A stretch of 64,000 bases of DNA from Candidatus Methylomirabilis sp. Its GTDB lineage: Bacteria; Methylomirabilota; Methylomirabilia; Methylomirabilales; Methylomirabilaceae. The translations under genes and the position numbers were made by a program. The stretch is from positions 1-64,000 of the forward strand of contig NZ_JAQUOY010000005.1 of assembly GCF_028716865.1 (NCBI RefSeq), given 5' to 3'. The notes beneath the pieces are model-generated. The model saw only the letters and a list, made by a program, of their open reading frames with translations. It did no database searches and was not told where the DNA came from. Each line of letters begins with the position of its first letter. Position 1 is the first letter of the stretch. Positions 8,616 to 15,922 of this stretch are shown here, piece by piece.

Positions 8616-10031
8616 TTATCCCGTGTATCCGCCTGTATCGGCTGCACGCAGCCGGAGAATACGCCGCGTCGAATCGGTTACCTTAAACCGTTCGTCCACT
8701 CGAAAGCCAACGACCCATACGATCTGACCACCTGAAACTACCAACGGGATGTTCCCGCGTTGATTGCGCGGCACCTTTGCGTCTACGAAGAAGTCCTGGA
8801 GTTTTTTCCGGCCATCCATCCCGAGGGGAACGAACCGGTCACCCTCCTCCCACCCTCTGACGTGTAGCTCCTTTCCGGTACAATCAGCATCAAGGAGGGC
8901 GGTCCAGGTATCCGGCGGGGGTTCGCTCCGGGACCACTCCTCAAGGAGGTCGCTTCTCAAGATGAGCGGCGAGTCCGGAATGACCGTGAGACCTGGGACA
9001 GCAAGCGGGAAAGATGAAATGCGGCCCCTTACTTGACCCTCCCCCACCGAAAGAACAATGCCGGCGCCTGCCCTTCTTGCGCGCAACCCACCTGACGCCT
9101 GAATAGTGCCCTGCGCGCCCTCCGTCAGCAAGAGTCGATCGATGAGGAGTATCTGCTGAAAGGTCAGGCCTGCTCGGCTATCTCGCAGGTATTCGGCGGA
9201 TCGCCGAATGATCCGCCATCTCAGAGCGGTGGGAAGAGTAGCCATGCGGGGAATAGACAGTACCAACTCCTCACGCGATCGCGAGAGCAGGACAGTCCCC
9301 AGCTCTTGCTCGACTATCGCGTTCAGTAGTGTGTCCTCAGCCTCAAGGATTCTGGCTGTATTCGCCAGAGCATGGACGATGCGGGGGTTATACCGCTTCG
9401 CCAGTCTCGGTAGGAGTTCCAGGCGAATCCGGTTCCGGCCGTACGAGAGGCTCCGGTTCGAGGAGTCCTCGACGTACGGGATCCTCTCCTTTCGCGCGTA
9501 CCGTTCGATCTCCTCCCGTGAGCAGTCGATCAACGGGCGAATGATCCGGCCTCTCACGGGCGGGATCCCTCCAAGCCCCCTGACCCCTGATCCCCGGAGC
9601 AGATTCATCAAGACAGTCTCCGCCTGGTCGTCACGGTGATGGCCTACGGCGATGCTGTCGGCGCCTCGCTCGTTCGCCACCTGTTCCAGGAATCGGTAGC
9701 GGAGATCACGGGCGGCGGCCTGAAGCGAGCCCACCCCCCGTTCCCGCAACGCCCTCCCGTCGGCCGTCGTAATGGTCACAGGAATCTGATAGGCCTCGCA
9801 TTGGCGACGCACAAAGTCGGCCGCCTCAGCCGACTCCGCCCCTCGGAGATCGTGGTTCAGATGGGCGACATGGAGAGAGATGTGATAGCGGATTCGGAGA
9901 CGCAGCAGAAGGTTAAGCATCACCATCGAATCAACACCGCCCGATACGGCGAGAACAACCATCTCTCCCGCTACCAGCATCCGATGCCGATCGATTGTCT
10001 CTTGAGCCCTATGAAGCAGCGCGTCCCTCAT
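8616..10031 (-). CDS. tilS: tRNA(Ile)-lysidine synthase
   Basis: TilS converts C34 of the tRNA-Ile(CAU) anticodon to lysidine, using ATP and lysine, so that AUA is read as isoleucine. The 471-residue protein has the PP-loop LAVSGGVDSMVML near residue 30, the VAHLNHDLRG and VGHHRDDQAETVLMNLLRGSG motifs, and a C-terminal substrate-binding domain (LHVRGWEEGDRFVPLGMDGRKKLQDFFVD). It heads the minus-strand block that continues with ftsH and folP; the tilS-ftsH pairing is common. Confidence 0.95.
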   Translation of the reverse strand: MRDALLHRAQETIDRHRMLVAGEMVVLAVSGGVDSMVMLNLLLRLRIRYHISLHVAHLNHDLRGAESAEAADFVRRQCEAYQIPVTITTADGRALRERGVGSLQAAARDLRYRFLEQVANERGADSIAVGHHRDDQAETVLMNLLRGSGVRGLGGIPPVRGRIIRPLIDCSREEIERYARKERIPYVEDSSNRSLSYGRNRIRLELLPRLAKRYNPRIVHALANTARILEAEDTLLNAIVEQELGTVLLSRSREELVLSIPRMATLPTALRWRIIRRSAEYLRDSRAGLTFQQILLIDRLLLTEGAQGTIQASGGLRARRAGAGIVLSVGEGQVRGRISSFPLAVPGLTVIPDSPLILRSDLLEEWSRSEPPPDTWTALLDADCTGKELHVRGWEEGDRFVPLGMDGRKKLQDFFVDAKVPRNQRGNIPLVVSGGQIVWVVGFRVDERFKVTDSTRRILRLRAADTGGYTG

Positions 10032-10306
10032 CGAGTGGAAACTGCAAAGCAGCCTCTAGCGGCCATCTCCCGCTGATCGTCTGTACGTCTACTCTAATGA
10101 GCCTCCTACCTGCTGTCAATACAAATTGCGCGCACAACAACGGGCTTACGTCATTGATTCGATCATCCATAAGAGAAGGTAGCGAAAGGCCTTGAAGAAG
10201 ACGCCTATCCATACTGGATGCCCGTTATCCTCATCGGCACTGACTACCGAAGAGCGAAAAGTCTTGGAACGCAGGCTGGGTGTGAAATTGTGACCTCATT
10301 TTCTTC
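10032..10306. other. Intergenic stretch, no gene seen
   Basis: This is the first part of the gap between divergent tilS (minus) and the radical SAM cassette (plus). Short open frames on both strands have no ribosome site and no recognisable sequence. It presumably holds the tilS promoter, but I could not pick one with confidence. Confidence 0.4.
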
Positions 10307-10335
10307 TTGACAGCCAGGAAAGTAACTGCTAAACA
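10307..10335 (+). promoter_or_regulatory. Candidate promoter upstream of the short peptide/hairpin
   Basis: A perfect -35 box TTGACA (10307-10312) is followed after 17 bases by TAAACA (10330-10335), a weak -10. A transcript from about 10342 would run through a ribosome site, a short reading frame and a strong hairpin with a T-tract ending at 10497. Confidence 0.4.
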
Positions 10336-10452
10336 AAGATTGCTCAGTATGATCTGTTTATGCTTAATACCTATGAAGAAGATGTAAAAATGGCGATAAG
10401 TGGGAAAATGCAACCGCGCCAGATCAGTAGTAAGTTAAAGGAGAAGATCTAT

Positions 10453-10497
10453 ATGGCCCTTTGGGGTACGGGAGCCCCAAAGGGCCATTCTGTTTTT
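10453..10497 (+). terminator. Strong terminator- or attenuator-like hairpin
   Basis: ATGGCCCTTTGGGG (10453-10466) and CCCCAAAGGGCCAT (10475-10488) are perfect 14-base complements around an eight-base loop, followed by TCTGTTTTT. It has the T-tract only on the plus strand. The start codon of the candidate peptide is the base of the stem. It could end a short RNA started at about 10342, or act as an attenuator in front of the radical SAM genes. Confidence 0.7.
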
Positions 10498-10521
10498 AGG
10501 AGAGCTCTGCCTTGCCACTAG
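10453..10521 (+). CDS. Candidate 22-residue precursor peptide of the radical SAM cassette (hypothetical)
   Basis: The reading frame starts at an ATG nine bases after AAAGGAG (10437-10443), the best ribosome site in this gap. It encodes MALWGTGAPKGHS followed by VFRRALPCH. The same frame is open further upstream from an ATG at 10360, which would give 53 residues with a hydrophilic leader (ending …ISSKLKEKIY) before this sequence, but that ATG lacks a ribosome site. Short peptides just upstream of PqqD-like and radical SAM/SPASM genes are typical substrates (PqqA, MftA). Against it: codons 1-12 coincide with a perfect terminator-like hairpin, so the region may be only an RNA signal. I do not recognise a family. 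Confidence 0.4.
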   Translation: MALWGTGAPKGHSVFRRALPCH

Positions 10522-10760
10522 AAGGGGCCGGTGGGACGACCAATTGGGTCAATGATGCTGTACATGCATGGTCTCAATCGAGGCGGATCCGGGGTCTATA
10601 CCCATGCGGATCGGTTGTGACCGCGGAGACCGATCCATATAGGTAGCTGGATGACAGCGGACCGGTAGCGGGACAGGGGCTGATATCTCCAGCGTTTGTG
10701 AGGTAAATAGTCTTTCCTGCTGAGGCTAATATCACCACAATGAAAAAAACAGGGGAACAG
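10522..10760. other. Leader region of the radical SAM cassette
   Basis: This gap of about 240 bases separates the hairpin from the ABM-fold gene. It contains a promoter/operator-like element at 10608-10643 and a second 22-codon open frame at 10552-10620 (begins MMLYMHGLNRGG) without a ribosome site. Nothing else is recognised. Confidence 0.5.
10608..10643 (+). promoter_or_regulatory. Candidate promoter with an overlapping palindromic operator
   Basis: TTGTGA (10615-10620) and TATAGG (10638-10643) are spaced by 17 bases. Perfect inverted arms GGATCGGT (10608-10615) and ACCGATCC (10629-10636) straddle the space between the two boxes, the usual place for a repressor site. It would drive the cassette starting at 10761. 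Confidence 0.4.
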
Positions 10761-11090
10761 ATGAGTTACCCGGTAGTTCTTCACTTGGCGATCCGGACTC
10801 CTGCGGAGGGACGCCAGAAATTGCTAGATTTCCTACGGGAGGTCGTTCCCTTTTATGAACAACCCGGTGGAATCCGGATCCGCTTGTTCCAGTCCCTAGA
10901 TGATCCTAATAGTTTCACTGAAGTCGTCGAGTATGTAGACCGTGCTACTTACGATCGTGACAACATTCGTGTTCGATCCGACCGAGAAATGAAGAGCTCC
11001 CTTGATCGTTGGAGATCTCTGCTAGAGGGTTCGGTTGAGACGGCAGTTTATCAGGACTTGAGTAGCGAAATCCACGGAGGGCCAAAGTGA
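10761..11090 (+). CDS. Small ABM-fold (antibiotic biosynthesis monooxygenase-like) protein
   Basis: A 109-residue protein resembling the dimeric alpha+beta barrel ABM/NIPSNAP group: a first strand VVLHLAIRT, a helix GRQKLLDFLREVVPFYEQPGGIRIRLFQS, then SFTEVVEYVDRATYDRDN. I chose the ATG at 10761 because AGGGGA lies just before it; an in-frame ATG at 10740 gives seven more residues. The family includes cofactor-free oxygenases and haem-binding proteins, so the activity here cannot be named. Its stop overlaps the next start (TGATG), showing that it belongs to the radical SAM cassette. Confidence 0.65.
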   Translation: MSYPVVLHLAIRTPAEGRQKLLDFLREVVPFYEQPGGIRIRLFQSLDDPNSFTEVVEYVDRATYDRDNIRVRSDREMKSSLDRWRSLLEGSVETAVYQDLSSEIHGGPK

Positions 11091-12169
11091 TGATAGAGGA
11101 GTTTGCGCCGGTAACTGCCTTCAAGGCACCACTCTATGTTGCCTGGGAAATCACCCATCTATGCAATGCCAAATGCCTGCATTGCTATTCCAATTCAGGA
11201 CCGGAAGCTGACTGCGCACAGGAACTCTCGACGAGCGAGGCACTTTCGGTCATCGACCAACTTGCGGACGCAGGGCTGCTAGTACTGGCGTTTTCCGGCG
11301 GGGAGCCGATGCTGCGGAAGGACTGGAAGGTACTGGTCGGACATGCCGTAGCTCGGGGGCTCAACGTCACTATGGGTACAAACGGCTCTGTCATCAACGA
11401 CCTCACCGCTTCTGAGTTGCAGCAACTCGGCGTGCGGAGCGTCACCATCAGCTTGGATAGTCACAAGTCCGAGACTCACGACTATTTCCGCCAATGTCCA
11501 GGATTGTATAAGCGGGCGGTCAACGCGGTTCGCTCCCTGGTGAAGCGGCACATGCGGGTAGTGGTCGGCTTCACACCCACCCGAATCAACTGGTTGGACG
11601 GCCCAGAGCTGGTGAAGCTCGCCGAGGAATTGGGCGCCCACGCGGTCAACTTGTCGGAATACGTTCCCGCTGGGCGTGGCGCGCTCAACCTAGCCCTTCC
11701 GCCCGAAGACTTAAGAAAGACACTCCTGGAATGGATCGAGATGCGCGAGCGCTTTCGCGGCCGGATCGATATCATCTGGCACGATTGTCGCGTCGGCATG
11801 CTGGTACCCGACAACGAAAAGAGACATTACGTTGGCTGTGGCGCCGGCCGGCTCGTAGGTCGGATCTGCCCGGATGGTACGATGACGCCTTGCGTTTTCC
11901 TTCCGACACCTATCGGCTCATTTCGCCAGAGTACCTTCAGAGAGATGTGGAATCGCTCCGATCTCCTCTTTCGGTTCCGCAAACGACTGGGGCAATTTAC
12001 GGGAAATTGCGGAACCTGCGAGTATCTCTCCACTTGCGGAGGATGTCGGGCTGTGGCGTATGCATACAGTAGCGGAAATCCACTCGCTGGAGATCCGCAC
12101 TGCTGGGTGAAGCTCCAGCCCGATCCGAGGTTGGAATTGCTCCCCTGCGGCGAGGCTCTTCCCGTCTAA
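11090..12169 (+). CDS. Radical SAM/SPASM peptide-maturase-like enzyme 1
   Basis: A 359-residue radical SAM protein. The SAM-binding cluster motif is C25-x3-C29-x2-C32 (HLCNAKCLHCY), followed by SGGEP at 69-73. The C-terminal third is a SPASM domain with eight cysteines (GCGAG, RICPDG, MTPC, NCGTC, STCGGCRAVAYAY, DPHCW), enough for two auxiliary 4Fe-4S clusters. This layout is shared by PqqE, MftC, NirJ and AhbD. The start ATG at 11090 overlaps the upstream stop and lies nine bases after GGAGG. A PqqD-like gene follows 14 bases downstream, which favours a peptide substrate over a tetrapyrrole, although both remain possible. Confidence 0.85.
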   Translation: MIEEFAPVTAFKAPLYVAWEITHLCNAKCLHCYSNSGPEADCAQELSTSEALSVIDQLADAGLLVLAFSGGEPMLRKDWKVLVGHAVARGLNVTMGTNGSVINDLTASELQQLGVRSVTISLDSHKSETHDYFRQCPGLYKRAVNAVRSLVKRHMRVVVGFTPTRINWLDGPELVKLAEELGAHAVNLSEYVPAGRGALNLALPPEDLRKTLLEWIEMRERFRGRIDIIWHDCRVGMLVPDNEKRHYVGCGAGRLVGRICPDGTMTPCVFLPTPIGSFRQSTFREMWNRSDLLFRFRKRLGQFTGNCGTCEYLSTCGGCRAVAYAYSSGNPLAGDPHCWVKLQPDPRLELLPCGEALPV

Positions 12170-12183
12170 ACTCGGAACGATCA

Positions 12184-12471
12184 GTGGCCACTGCGTTAAC
12201 GACTGAGACCGTCCTCAAACTGACATCTTGGTGCGTCATTCGCGAGCAGGAGGAGCAGTACCTGATTTACAATTCTCAGACCGATGAATTGCACCTCCTG
12301 CCTCTAACCGGATTCTACGCGTACCAGCTCTGCAATGGCTGGAGCACAGTGGGTGAGATCGAGCAATCTCTGTCCATGGCAATGCAGGTGGACAGCAGGA
12401 TTTTGCGACCCCAGCTTCAGAAATTTTTCAGCAATCTGGTGGCCAGAGGCATTCTAGAAGTCGAGTGGTGA
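12184..12471 (+). CDS. PqqD-like peptide chaperone (RiPP recognition element)
   Basis: A 95-residue protein of PqqD type. PqqD-like proteins adopt a winged-helix fold that binds the leader of a ribosomal peptide and delivers it to the radical SAM enzyme. Visible signs are the LTSWCVIREQEEQYLIYNSQTDELHLLP beta region followed by LTGFYAYQLCNGWSTVGEIEQSLS, matching the family pattern of a conserved hydrophobic segment, then [DN]G and T-x-x-E-I. It begins at a GTG and its end overlaps the second radical SAM gene by seven bases, so it sits between the two enzymes and may serve both. Confidence 0.75.
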   Translation: MATALTTETVLKLTSWCVIREQEEQYLIYNSQTDELHLLPLTGFYAYQLCNGWSTVGEIEQSLSMAMQVDSRILRPQLQKFFSNLVARGILEVEW

Positions 12472-13508
12472 TTCAAGTGTTGCAGGCTGGCAGCTTTCGT
12501 CCTCGAACTCCCTTCCACATGGTGTGGCTGGCAACCACCGCGTGCAACGCGCGCTGCCTGCACTGCTCTTCGAATGCGAGCGTTCGATCGCCTGATGAAT
12601 TGCGGACGAATGAGGCTATTGACCTTCTGAGTCAGCTTGCCGAAGCGGGGGTTGTCGATCTGGCCATATCTGGTGGCGAGCCTCTGCTGCGCCCCGATCT
12701 TCTGGAGATCATCGCGGAAGCGAGACGCCTTGGGTTGGCTGTGGGAGTGGGCTCGAACGGCGCCGTACTGAGCGAGCGCAAGGCGGCGCTTTTGGCAGCA
12801 TCAGGCATCAATCGTTTTCAGGTCAGCCTGGATGGATTTCACACCGCTCACGACACCATTCGACGTTGGCCCGGCTTGTTTGATCGCGCGCTTCGAACCA
12901 TCGAGGTGGCGGCCTGCGCTGGCCTGCGGGTCACCGTTTGTTGCACCATCAACCGCCTCAACGCGGCTGAACTGGAACCCTTCACGGAATTTATTTCTAG
13001 CACTAAGATCATCCGGCTGAACTTCTCACGCTACGTACCGACCGGCCGTGGGACCGACGAATTGGACCTCACGGACGAGGAGTGGCGCTTGGTGATCACC
13101 TTATCGGCGGAACTCCGAATCCGCTACCGGGGCAAAGTCGACATCGTCAATCACCTGGCGCAACAGATTTTCGTCGATCATGAACTTGAGGGAATGCCGG
13201 GCTTCATAGGCTGCCAGGCAGGTATAGGCCAGGGATGCGTGACCGCCAACGGCACCGTGTTGCCTTGCGTGCTGTTGCCGATCCCGCTCGGCAACATCCG
13301 TGAAGGAACCTTCCGTCAGATCTGGCTTAACTCTCCCGTCATTCGAGTCCTGCAATCTAGAGAGTATCTAAAGGGTGAGTGCGCCGCTTGCCAGGTCAGA
13401 AACCGGTGTGGGGGCTGTCGTGCTGTGGCTTATGCAAAAACCGGGGATTATCTCGCCACTGATCCACGTTGCTGGTTGGTGAACCACTGTCAGGCCCAAG
13501 TCGCCTAA
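12465..13508 (+). CDS. Radical SAM/SPASM peptide-maturase-like enzyme 2
   Basis: A 347-residue paralogue of the enzyme at 11090-12169. It has the cluster motif TACNARCLHCSS near residues 28-35, SGGEP near residue 74, and a SPASM domain with eight cysteines (GCQAG, GCVTANG, LPC, GECAAC, NRCGGCRAVAYAK, DPRCW). The shared GGCRAVAYA and DP-x-CW blocks show a common origin with enzyme 1, but the middle of each protein differs, so they probably carry out different steps or form a heterodimer. It starts at a GTG inside the end of the PqqD-like gene. Confidence 0.85.
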   Translation: MVIQVLQAGSFRPRTPFHMVWLATTACNARCLHCSSNASVRSPDELRTNEAIDLLSQLAEAGVVDLAISGGEPLLRPDLLEIIAEARRLGLAVGVGSNGAVLSERKAALLAASGINRFQVSLDGFHTAHDTIRRWPGLFDRALRTIEVAACAGLRVTVCCTINRLNAAELEPFTEFISSTKIIRLNFSRYVPTGRGTDELDLTDEEWRLVITLSAELRIRYRGKVDIVNHLAQQIFVDHELEGMPGFIGCQAGIGQGCVTANGTVLPCVLLPIPLGNIREGTFRQIWLNSPVIRVLQSREYLKGECAACQVRNRCGGCRAVAYAKTGDYLATDPRCWLVNHCQAQVA

Positions 13509-13529
13509 ATACTTCAAGGAGGATAAGAA

Positions 13530-14078
13530 ATGGCAAACGAACGCGTCGAAAAACAACATGAACAAATCGTGGAGGCCTACTTCCGACACATTCGGGACCT
13601 GCGTACCGGAAAGACCGGTTCGGTGGAAGCGTTGCTGAATCTCTGGGATGCAGACGGCACCTTTGAGTTTGCCGGTTCTCCTCCAGTCACCGGAACCTTT
13701 CAAGGCCGCAATGCAATTCATACGCTCTACAAGAACCGGTTTCACTCCAACCGCATGCCCTTGAAACTGGAGGGTACGGGGAAGAAGCCGGCGCCTATGC
13801 AGGAGACTGCCCTCGGCGTGGTGGATACCGAGGTCCATCGGATCAAAGTGATGGACGAGAAAATCGTGGCCGGTTGGATCACTAAGATCGGCACCCAGGA
13901 CGAGCGTGGCTTCCAAGTCGCTGGAAGCCATACTTTCACCTTCAAGAATGGAAAAATTAGCAGCCTCAAGGTGGTTGTCTCACCCCGGCCGGAGGCAGCA
14001 CCACACCTCAATCTTGAGGGCCTGACGGTAGATGACATCGGAAGGCTCTCTCTGGCTGCGTGGCCGGTTGTTGTTTGA
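13530..14078 (+). CDS. SnoaL-like (NTF2 superfamily) protein
   Basis: A 182-residue protein with the SnoaL/NTF2-like pattern: helix HEQIVEAYFRHIRDL, then ALLNLWDADGTFEFAG, GTFQGRNAIHTLYKNRF, and C-terminal beta strands GSHTFTFKNGKISSLKVVVS. The family includes polyketide cyclases, isomerases and small-molecule-binding proteins. An AAGGAGG lies seven bases before the ATG, stronger than at the other cassette genes, suggesting high expression. It is the last gene of the cassette. No function can be assigned beyond the fold. Confidence 0.65.
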   Translation: MANERVEKQHEQIVEAYFRHIRDLRTGKTGSVEALLNLWDADGTFEFAGSPPVTGTFQGRNAIHTLYKNRFHSNRMPLKLEGTGKKPAPMQETALGVVDTEVHRIKVMDEKIVAGWITKIGTQDERGFQVAGSHTFTFKNGKISSLKVVVSPRPEAAPHLNLEGLTVDDIGRLSLAAWPVVV

Positions 14079-14415
14079 GTGTGGCGGGCGTCTCTGCCTG
14101 ACAGACAAGATTACTACTGGTTTGGAGGAATGAGCTCGAAATCCATTAGGACAAAAAAGGTCAAGTCTACCCTTGACTCAGGTGAGTAAGGCAGAGCTAG
14201 GGTGAAAAAGCGCCGAGAGTCTTTTAACGATCGGGGTCAAGGCTTGAAGTGTGAATCCTGCCAGTCGTCGCTTTCTGAACGTGATCTACCCTTGGGCGAA
14301 CGTGTATGACATGGATGCGGTCGATACAGATATGATTTAAGACTCGACCCCAGCCAGGTACAGGTAGGGTGTCACGTCTAGTCGTTACCGCGACTTCACC
14401 CGTGATCATTCCTGG
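14079..14415. other. Intergenic stretch between cassette and vapBC, no gene supported
   Basis: Short frames at 14130 (GGAGG only one base from the ATG) and 14202 (GTG start, contains CESC) were inspected and neither is convincing. A minus-strand frame of 61 codons at 14224-14409 resembles no family I know. Confidence 0.4.
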
Positions 14416-14826
14416 CTATCCCTTCGACGGGTCGAGAACCCGAAGGCGGGAAAAGTAGGTCCGGTAGAATCCACGATCTCTAGTCAGCAGCCGATCGGCT
14501 TGGGAAAGGGCATGGGCACCGATCAAGAAATCCGCCACCATGCGTTCTCGCTGGCCTCCTCTGCTGCGATAGGTCTTCCAAACCCGACTGGCCAGAAGCG
14601 CCGTTTTCAGTTCTATGGGGTTGAATTCTACCTCGAGGCGGCTCAGAACGTCTTGCGCGACATTGGTGGACGGAAAGAAGCTCGCTATCTCTGCCCATAC
14701 CACCTCACAAGCGACAAGGCTACCTTCGGCCAGACAGACACGAATAGCCTTCCCTGACCGGAGTCCGAAAATCGGGTCTGGCCCGAACACATCCAACAAG
14801 ACGCTGGTATCGACCGCTGTGATCAC
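14416..14826 (-). CDS. vapC: PIN-domain toxin (VapC family)
   Basis: A 136-residue PIN-domain ribonuclease. Acidic metal-binding residues are visible in AVDTSVLLDVF (Asp5), CEVVWAEIAS (Glu), RMVADFLIGAHAL (Asp) and LLTRDRGFYRTYF (Asp). VapC toxins cut RNA, often initiator tRNA or 23S rRNA, when not bound by their antitoxin. The start overlaps the upstream AbrB-type antitoxin gene by four bases, the usual arrangement. Confidence 0.85.
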   Translation of the reverse strand: MITAVDTSVLLDVFGPDPIFGLRSGKAIRVCLAEGSLVACEVVWAEIASFFPSTNVAQDVLSRLEVEFNPIELKTALLASRVWKTYRSRGGQRERMVADFLIGAHALSQADRLLTRDRGFYRTYFSRLRVLDPSKG

Positions 14827-15053
14827 ACCGCGTCCGCTTTGCCTCGTAGAGAAGTGATCAGATCGTCCGTTGGATGCTTCAACCCGAGGATCCCGTACAC
14901 GCTCTCTACGGCATCTTGCGCAGTCGCCTTGGTGGCCACCAGACGGCCCTTCTCTTCACTGAAGTCCAGGGCGTTTCCAGGGCGAATTCCCAGGCGTTTC
15001 CGGAGAGGCTTTGGGATCGTGACCTGGCCCTTTTCCGACACAATGGTTTTCAT
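14823..15053 (-). CDS. vapB: AbrB/SpoVT-type antitoxin (VapB family)
   Basis: A 76-residue DNA-binding antitoxin. The swapped-hairpin AbrB domain is obvious in MKTIVSEKGQVTIPKPLRKR followed by LGIRPGNALDF. The C-terminal part should wrap the PIN-domain toxin encoded next. Such pairs autorepress through the AbrB domain binding their promoter; the AT-rich 15054-15090 stretch just upstream would be the site, but I cannot define an operator. Confidence 0.85.
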   Translation of the reverse strand: MKTIVSEKGQVTIPKPLRKRLGIRPGNALDFSEEKGRLVATKATAQDAVESVYGILGLKHPTDDLITSLRGKADAV

Positions 15054-15193
15054 ACTAAAAATGTATGAATTCTTACCATAAATGTCAAGTGAGAAATCAC
15101 GGATGGACAGGCCCCTCTAGTCAGTCAAGAGGGATCAAGCACTGGACGTGAAGCTGTGTTGACGGGACGCTACAAGTATGTTATCCGTAACGC

Positions 15194-15922
15194 ATGACGA
15201 CATCTTTACAGGCGGCCACACCATCCCCTCCTCTCTCCTTCTGCGGCTATCAATTCCAAAATATCGAGCTTCTTGAAGCAGCCTTGACTCACCCCTCTTC
15301 GACCGACACGGCGCAGGCAGATGTGCGTCTTCGCTACCAACGGCTCGAATTTCTGGGAGATGCGGTCTGGAGCCTCTATGTAAGCGACGCACTCGTCTCC
15401 CTGCTTCCGACAGCCTCGGAGGGCGAACTCACCCTGCGTCGCGCGAGCCTCGTGAGTGCTGCCGCGCTGGCCGAAATGGCGAAAATCCACGGCCTTGCGC
15501 CGTTGCTCTTACTGAGCAAGGGAGAAGAATCAACGGGGGGTAGAGATAAGGCCAAGGTTCTCTCAAGTGCCTTCGAAGCGGTAATAGCGGCGATCTACCT
15601 GGACGGTGGCGTCGCGAAGATCCGCGAGCTGGCGCGTGAGGCGTGTGTCAACGCCCTCAGCGGAGAAGGACTGACCCACGATCCGAAAACCGCCTTACAA
15701 CAGCTCGCTCAATTGCACCTTCGCTCGACCCCCCGTTATCGTCTTGTCCGCCGATCCGGACCTCCTCACGCTCCGACGTTCGAGGTCGAGGTGGTAGTCG
15801 GACGGTCACCGATGGCAAAGGGAAAGGGGCGAAATAGGCAGGAGGCCGAACGGGAGGCTGCTCGAGCCGCACTCAGATCACTGCCAGACCTCATATCTAC
15901 AACATCTAGTAGCCAAGTATAA
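15194..15922 (+). CDS. rnc: Ribonuclease III
   Basis: A 242-residue double-strand-specific ribonuclease that processes rRNA and structured mRNAs. The catalytic signature RLEFLGDAVWSLY lies near residues 49-61 and a double-stranded-RNA-binding domain near 155-232 (DPKTALQQLAQ … AKGKGRNRQEAEREAARAAL). The second catalytic segment reads KVLSSAFEAVIAAIYLDGG, so the usual aspartate before FEA (D114 in E. coli, in LAD-x-x-E) is serine while the following glutamate is kept. It precedes smc and ftsY, a widespread order. Confidence 0.93.
   Translation: MTTSLQAATPSPPLSFCGYQFQNIELLEAALTHPSSTDTAQADVRLRYQRLEFLGDAVWSLYVSDALVSLLPTASEGELTLRRASLVSAAALAEMAKIHGLAPLLLLSKGEESTGGRDKAKVLSSAFEAVIAAIYLDGGVAKIRELAREACVNALSGEGLTHDPKTALQQLAQLHLRSTPRYRLVRRSGPPHAPTFEVEVVVGRSPMAKGKGRNRQEAEREAARAALRSLPDLISTTSSSQV

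Follow-up and report, generated by a model that had tools for sequence, protein, structure and literature searches.

The five genes at positions 10740–14078 of a 64,000 nt stretch of Candidatus Methylomirabilis sp. DNA (contig NZ_JAQUOY010000005.1; the whole stretch is referred to as the window) form a conserved module. They encode an ABM-fold protein, two radical S-adenosylmethionine (SAM) enzymes with SPASM domains (rSAM1 and rSAM2), a PqqD-like protein and a SnoaL-like protein. The SnoaL-like protein ends in a tail that is its most conserved segment. The best explanation, with a probability of about 45%, is that both SPASM enzymes take this tail as their substrate, that the PqqD-like protein presents it to them, and that the ABM protein or a tautomerase provides finishing chemistry.

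The genes are on the + strand in the order ABM, rSAM1, PqqD-like, rSAM2, SnoaL-like, and are tightly packed. The ABM stop codon overlaps the rSAM1 start within the sequence TGATG (11088–11092), the PqqD-like and rSAM2 genes overlap by 7 bases, and gaps of 14 and 21 bases separate rSAM1 from the PqqD-like gene and rSAM2 from the SnoaL-like gene, respectively. The first-pass annotation of this DNA had described five same-strand genes with these spacings, and both are borne out by the sequence. It had also begun the cassette at position 10307; the genes were placed correctly, but no coding sequence is found from 10307 to about 10740.

The cassette was compared at five loci. Type A is represented by the window, genome G1157 (from the same order as Afifella) and Afifella pfennigii, and type B by an Indioceanicola profundi plasmid and genome G1244. 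SnoaL, rSAM1, PqqD and rSAM2 are found together at all five, i.e. in two phyla and two subtypes. The type A order, ABM-rSAM1-PqqD-rSAM2-SnoaL, is that of the window and G1157, with equally tight spacing; Afifella pfennigii has the last four of these genes (rSAM1 62% identical). The type B order is SnoaL-rSAM1-PqqD-B12-radical SAM-rSAM2-tautomerase. Since the same five genes, order and tight spacing recur in G1157, and the four-gene core at three more loci, the arrangement is not due to chance.

Both rSAM1 and rSAM2 display Radical_SAM and SPASM Pfam domains above cut-off. The radical SAM CX3CX2C motif and a complete seven-cysteine SPASM set are present, and all ten cysteines are invariant in the ten sequences (rSAM1 and rSAM2 from five loci). 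The full set of cysteines is as in peptide-modifying SPASM enzymes. In a phylogenetic tree the rSAM1 orthologs form one clade (support 99/97) and the rSAM2 orthologs another (87/92). The two clades branch alike internally, thus the module was inherited as a unit, and SnoaL identities between loci agree with this branching. A joint clade of rSAM1 and rSAM2 has a support of 48/28 and is neither shown nor rejected. Two distant relatives of rSAM1 belong to other systems: L010, which by its neighbors is probably an AhbC/AhbD locus beside hemB, and L011, a different cluster of radical SAM, B12-radical SAM and ABC genes. PADLOC gave no evidence for a defense system, its only signal being a viperin likeness of a general kind in the radical SAM domains. 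Type A rSAM1 has in addition a short conserved tail of its own past the SPASM domain, GE(A/G)LP(V/I) (window 12149–12166; C-termini in L055 and L009).

The PqqD-like gene lies between the two SPASM genes at all five loci. Thus a PqqD-type recognition element for ribosomally synthesized and post-translationally modified peptides (a RiPP recognition element, RRE) is adjacent to SPASM enzymes throughout, which together with the cysteine motifs gives two of the features expected of RRE-SPASM peptide maturation; for a third, a genetically encoded polypeptide substrate, the SnoaL tail is the candidate. The window protein itself scores 19.3 bits with the Pfam PqqD model, below the cut-off of 23.4, whereas its orthologs in G1157 (40.1 bits), Afifella (43.3) and Indioceanicola (24.3) are above it. 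Its structural model has the order b-b-b-a-a-a with a mean predicted local distance difference test (pLDDT) score of 56. The top PDB matches of the model are RREs: TbiB1 in complex with a leader peptide comes first, followed by CteB and PqqD, with E-values of 0.01 or weaker. This low-confidence model suggests an RRE-type fold. The earlier assignment as PqqD-like therefore stands through the orthologs and the RRE-like model, but not through the Pfam score of the window protein. PqqD is the trans-acting RRE for PqqE (PMC8326336).

The SnoaL-like protein matches Pfam SnoaL_2 (PF12680) with 35.7 bits, above cut-off. In a structure search its model has PhzA/B and TerC among its neighbors and shows an NTF2 fold that ends near residue 152, with the tail lying beyond it. 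Residues 155–182 have a pLDDT below 50, as would be expected if the tail is flexible. A PDB sequence search with the SnoaL profile gave no match and a search of viral contigs with it no relative.

In proteins of this type, a C-terminal stretch that is not part of the fold usually ranks among the least conserved regions. The SnoaL tail is the most conserved: identity in the tail compared with the rest is 93% versus 56% within type A, 61% versus 40% within type B, and 42% versus 24% between types. The consensus reads L-x-[VI]-[DE]-D-[ILM]-G-x-L-[SA]-x-x-A-W-x-V-[VA]. Its end is nearly fixed, and the window protein has one additional Val. Invariant residues make up 7 of 19 positions in the tail and 18 of 163 elsewhere (Fisher p = 0.007, relatedness ignored). 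The last 20 aligned codons of the window and G1157 genes differ by 13 synonymous changes and one nonsynonymous change; therefore selection acts on the peptide, and codon comparison indicates that the tail is under strong purifying selection. No second protein bearing the tail was found in the cassette genomes.

The first-pass annotation had grouped the SnoaL-like and ABM proteins as types known in oxygenation or cyclization of small molecules. The hyper-conserved tail suggests a substrate rather than, or besides, a tailoring enzyme, and the ABM protein is an optional part of the cassette. It is present at two of the three type A loci and at none of type B; neither the Afifella genome nor the Indioceanicola plasmid has a homolog. 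The window protein matches PF03992 (29.6 bits, above the Pfam cut-off) and has an ortholog at the same place in the G1157 cassette (41% identical). Its translation more likely starts at 10761 than at 10740, because a Shine-Dalgarno-like AGGGGA is found upstream and the position agrees with the G1157 start (MSATRGPV...).

Related to possible function, the cassette may be a horizontally spread maturation system in which the PqqD-like protein acts in trans as the recognition element and brings the SnoaL-like protein to both SPASM enzymes. These would install at least one radical modification in the flexible tail, plausibly in the neighborhood of the invariant Trp178 and Val180; an oxidative change and a C-C cross-link are examples. 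The NTF2 fold would thus be a large leader or carrier, and the tail its core. Finishing of the tail would be due to the ABM protein in subtype A and, in subtype B, to the tautomerase, sometimes with a VOC protein, and to the B12-radical SAM enzyme (likely methylation). The product would either stay on SnoaL as a built-in cofactor or be released by a general protease. It may act in place, inside the pocket of its own SnoaL protein. In view of the ABM and tautomerase company it is possibly quinone-like, which is speculation. The wider proposal, that an NTF2/SnoaL protein carries a genetically encoded C-terminal substrate and that SPASM enzymes with a trans-acting RRE make from its Trp tail a small molecule or cofactor of a new, peptide-derived kind, is more tentative still.

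Several points weigh against the tail being a substrate. The tail statistics come from only five loci, so that the sequences are few and their relatedness is ignored; the alignments are likewise shallow and the structure models of low confidence. The NTF2 domain also has invariant residues (e.g. W39, Y67, H134 and F136), as in an enzyme, and the conserved tail could be a docking or oligomerization element. In type A the SnoaL gene is last, whereas precursor genes are often first. The cassettes have no linked peptidase or exporter that could be found, as would be expected of a product that remains attached to the protein. Free small molecules are the usual substrates of ABM, VOC and tautomerase proteins, which would fit release of the product.

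The main rival explanation, close to the view of the first-pass annotation though less probable than the tail as substrate, is a RiPP or peptide-cofactor pathway with a precursor gene that lies elsewhere or escaped notice. In that case SnoaL and ABM would be tailoring enzymes for cyclization or oxygenation, and the tail would be a helix onto which the SPASM enzymes or the PqqD-like protein dock. The invariant residues of the SnoaL domain are in keeping with this, as are the tautomerase and VOC proteins of type B and the occurrence of SnoaL-type folds in small-molecule enzymes, such as the neighbors PhzA/B and TerC named above. However, it would be unusual for a docking tail to have 93% identity compared with 56% elsewhere and to end in a nearly fixed way. 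In addition, no conserved short open reading frame is found in or near the cassettes. A comparison of short reading frames outside the genes over the five loci gave no conserved precursor, the only strongly conserved one being the type B tautomerase; other matches between loci are weak and mostly low-complexity GC-rich frames.

It is improbable that the cassette encodes a small-molecule pathway in which the radical SAM, ABM and SnoaL proteins and the type B tautomerase and VOC proteins are all enzymes, with the PqqD-like protein repurposed as an accessory. Every accessory fold is typical of small-molecule chemistry, and the curated models nearest to the radical SAM proteins are TIGR04053 and two for enzymes of tetrapyrroles, NirJ2 and AhbD. 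This explanation, however, does not account for the PqqD-like RRE being kept at all five loci and leaves the conservation of the SnoaL tail unexplained. The same best matches for rSAM1 and rSAM2 would favor a heme d1 or alternative heme pathway (NirJ, AhbC, AhbD) or one of the TIGR04053 type. This is very unlikely, as the scores are 192–212 bits compared with cut-offs of 395–500, rSAM1 and rSAM2 fall outside a clade that unites the NirJ, AhbC, AhbD and TIGR04053 proteins (support 98/95), and no other tetrapyrrole gene is seen at the loci.

The first-pass annotation had also looked to a short upstream peptide, which is not supported. The candidate, a 53 aa reading frame at 10360–10521 (...MALWGTGAPKGHSVF..., MALWGTGAPKG), is short, on the same strand and upstream of the operon, but as a RiPP precursor it is effectively refuted: its supposed core is a perfect 15 bp terminator-like hairpin followed by a T-run, copies 79%–85% identical are found elsewhere in the host genome and also in genomes of the same genus that have no cassette, no such peptide is present at the other loci, and no ribosome-binding site is seen by eye. 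It is a dispersed terminator-like element. The hairpin repeat (window 10453–10503) has several copies in the host genome and is found in most same-genus genomes searched. An Rfam scan gave only sub-threshold chance matches.

The cassette is filed with systems of the radical SAM/SPASM plus RRE kind, but outside the PQQ, mycofactocin, GeoRSP, SynChlorMet and heme pathways. The cofactors PQQ and mycofactocin, and many unusual peptides, are products of radical SAM/SPASM enzymes that have an RRE partner. The PQQ (pyrroloquinoline quinone) system, PqqA/PqqD/PqqE, likewise has a discrete PqqD-type RRE, a SPASM enzyme and a peptide-derived product. The cassette differs in that its SPASM enzymes are two and a short precursor is not seen, and the PqqE scores of 116 bits for rSAM1 and 130 bits for rSAM2 are below the cut-off of 381. 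Mycofactocin (MftA/B/C) also combines a SPASM enzyme with a PqqD-type chaperone, and its chemistry takes place at a C-terminal Val-Tyr (PMC8326336), comparable with the C-terminal A-W-x-V of the SnoaL tail. Here too the cassette has two SPASM enzymes, and no MftA-like peptide is seen (MftC scores 157 for rSAM1 and 145 for rSAM2, cut-off 265).

GeoRSP and SynChlorMet are NCBIfam-defined cassettes which, judged from the model names, have SPASM proteins with a PqqD-family protein. With the GeoRSP models the radical SAM proteins score 189 and 169 bits (cut-off 400) and the window PqqD-like protein 16.7 (geo_PqqD, cut-off 100). With SynChlorMet the ScmE/ScmF scores are 82–120 bits (cut-off 400) and the G1157 PqqD ortholog scores 26.8 (ScmD, cut-off 100). 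The cassette could be matched to no named system, as the first-pass annotation had held: no window protein reaches a curated NCBIfam cut-off, and the radical SAM proteins lie outside the heme-type clade. That annotation had taken a match to a named pathway, or relatives that never neighbor a PqqD-like gene or a short peptide, as grounds for giving up its view, and neither was found. There is one minor exception, TIGR04353 (PqqD_rel_X; HPr-rel-A system), a short model with a low cut-off of 35, which the Afifella PqqD ortholog passes (40.7) and the G1157 ortholog does not (32.1); the window protein is unmatched.

Two other systems may work in a similar way. In proteusins, radical SAM enzymes modify a C-terminal core that follows a large, enzyme-derived, nitrile-hydratase-like leader (PMC8326336), which by analogy is a precedent for SnoaL as a large leader. 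The cassette leader would differ in having an NTF2/SnoaL fold, not a nitrile hydratase fold, and a tail of about 19 residues, the modification of which is proposed only. In the 3-thiaglutamate pathway, the C-terminal residue of a carrier polypeptide (the TglA scaffold) is modified and later released (PMC9016710). The likeness is one of mode of working; the carrier of the cassette is a folded protein and its chemistry would be performed by SPASM enzymes. The open-access literature searched for SnoaL or NTF2 with radical SAM, SPASM, PqqD or RiPP gave nothing relevant, and SnoaL and NTF2 are not mentioned in a 2025 RRE survey (PMC12710340).

Genome mining usually seeks short precursor reading frames and would overlook a substrate that forms the tail of a folded NTF2 protein. 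If the proposal is true, SnoaL is a new kind of carrier protein with a concrete, testable substrate, i.e. a tail of 19 residues in which one Trp is invariant. The precursor architecture would then be new, and probably the cofactor as well, a redox or tailoring product common to the host genome and several alphaproteobacteria of another phylum.

Cassettes of this type are rare. In the host phylum none is found in 94 other genomes searched, including 14 of the same genus. A scan of an 84,980-species collection by exact peptide patterns, which reaches only close relatives, found Afifella pfennigii, and a plasmid search found Indioceanicola profundi. Among sampled genomes, Afifella is alone in 385 of its class and alone in 399 of its phylum; Afifella and G1157 are found in 398 of Afifella's order; and 2 of 28 in the G1157 family (G1157 and G1244) have the cassette. 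This rare and patchy pattern over two phyla suggests horizontal spread, and the host copy was probably acquired horizontally. The left side of rnc (window 10031–15194) differs from that in same-genus genomes: rnc-smc is common to them, and tilS, ftsH and the cassette are not. Thus the cassette site is also a rearrangement point.

Type B loci have additional genes. The B12-radical SAM protein has the RiPP enzyme ApyD as its best NCBIfam model (87.7 bits, cut-off 750). The tautomerase is above the PF01361 cut-off, starts with Met-Pro and its gene overlaps the 3′ end of rSAM2 (L012:11020–11250 and L058:7139–7369); the Indioceanicola tautomerase gene is missing from the PLSDB gene table of its record. 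G1244 has a VOC/glyoxalase gene directly before SnoaL.

Features of the cassette and its upstream region in the window
Feature	Position	Strand	Basis or remark
ABM-fold protein (PF03992), 116 aa; optional accessory gene of subtype A	10740..11090	+	Pfam above cut-off; G1157 ortholog
rSAM1, radical SAM/SPASM enzyme, 360 aa	11087..12169; start GTG 11087 or ATG 11090	+	Pfam, cysteines, tree
PqqD-like protein (discrete RRE), 95 aa	12184..12471	+	Pfam via orthologs; structure model
rSAM2, radical SAM/SPASM enzyme, 347 aa	12465..13508	+	Pfam, cysteines, tree
SnoaL-like (NTF2-fold) protein, 182 aa; proposed substrate and carrier	13530..14078	+	Pfam SnoaL_2; structure search; linkage
SnoaL tail, residues 164–182, GLTVDDIGRLSLAAWPVVV; proposed core; Trp178 and Val180 invariant	14019..14075	+	Conservation, codon changes, position outside fold
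Terminator-like perfect 15 bp hairpin, then T-run; not a precursor gene	10453..10488	+	Overlaps 53 aa open reading frame 10360–10521

Directly downstream of the window cassette and facing it, a PIN-domain and AbrB-like gene pair is found on the − strand (14416–15053), which by sequence has the look of a VapBC-type toxin-antitoxin. The Indioceanicola cassette adjoins TIR-domain and SIR2-family genes (L012 11409–14506), kinds known from anti-phage defense islands. On the Deinococcus radiodurans plasmid pCP1 (L043 2986–7113), closely packed genes for a radical SAM protein, a 113 aa hypothetical protein, a second radical SAM protein and a carbamoyltransferase look like a different radical SAM biosynthetic cluster.

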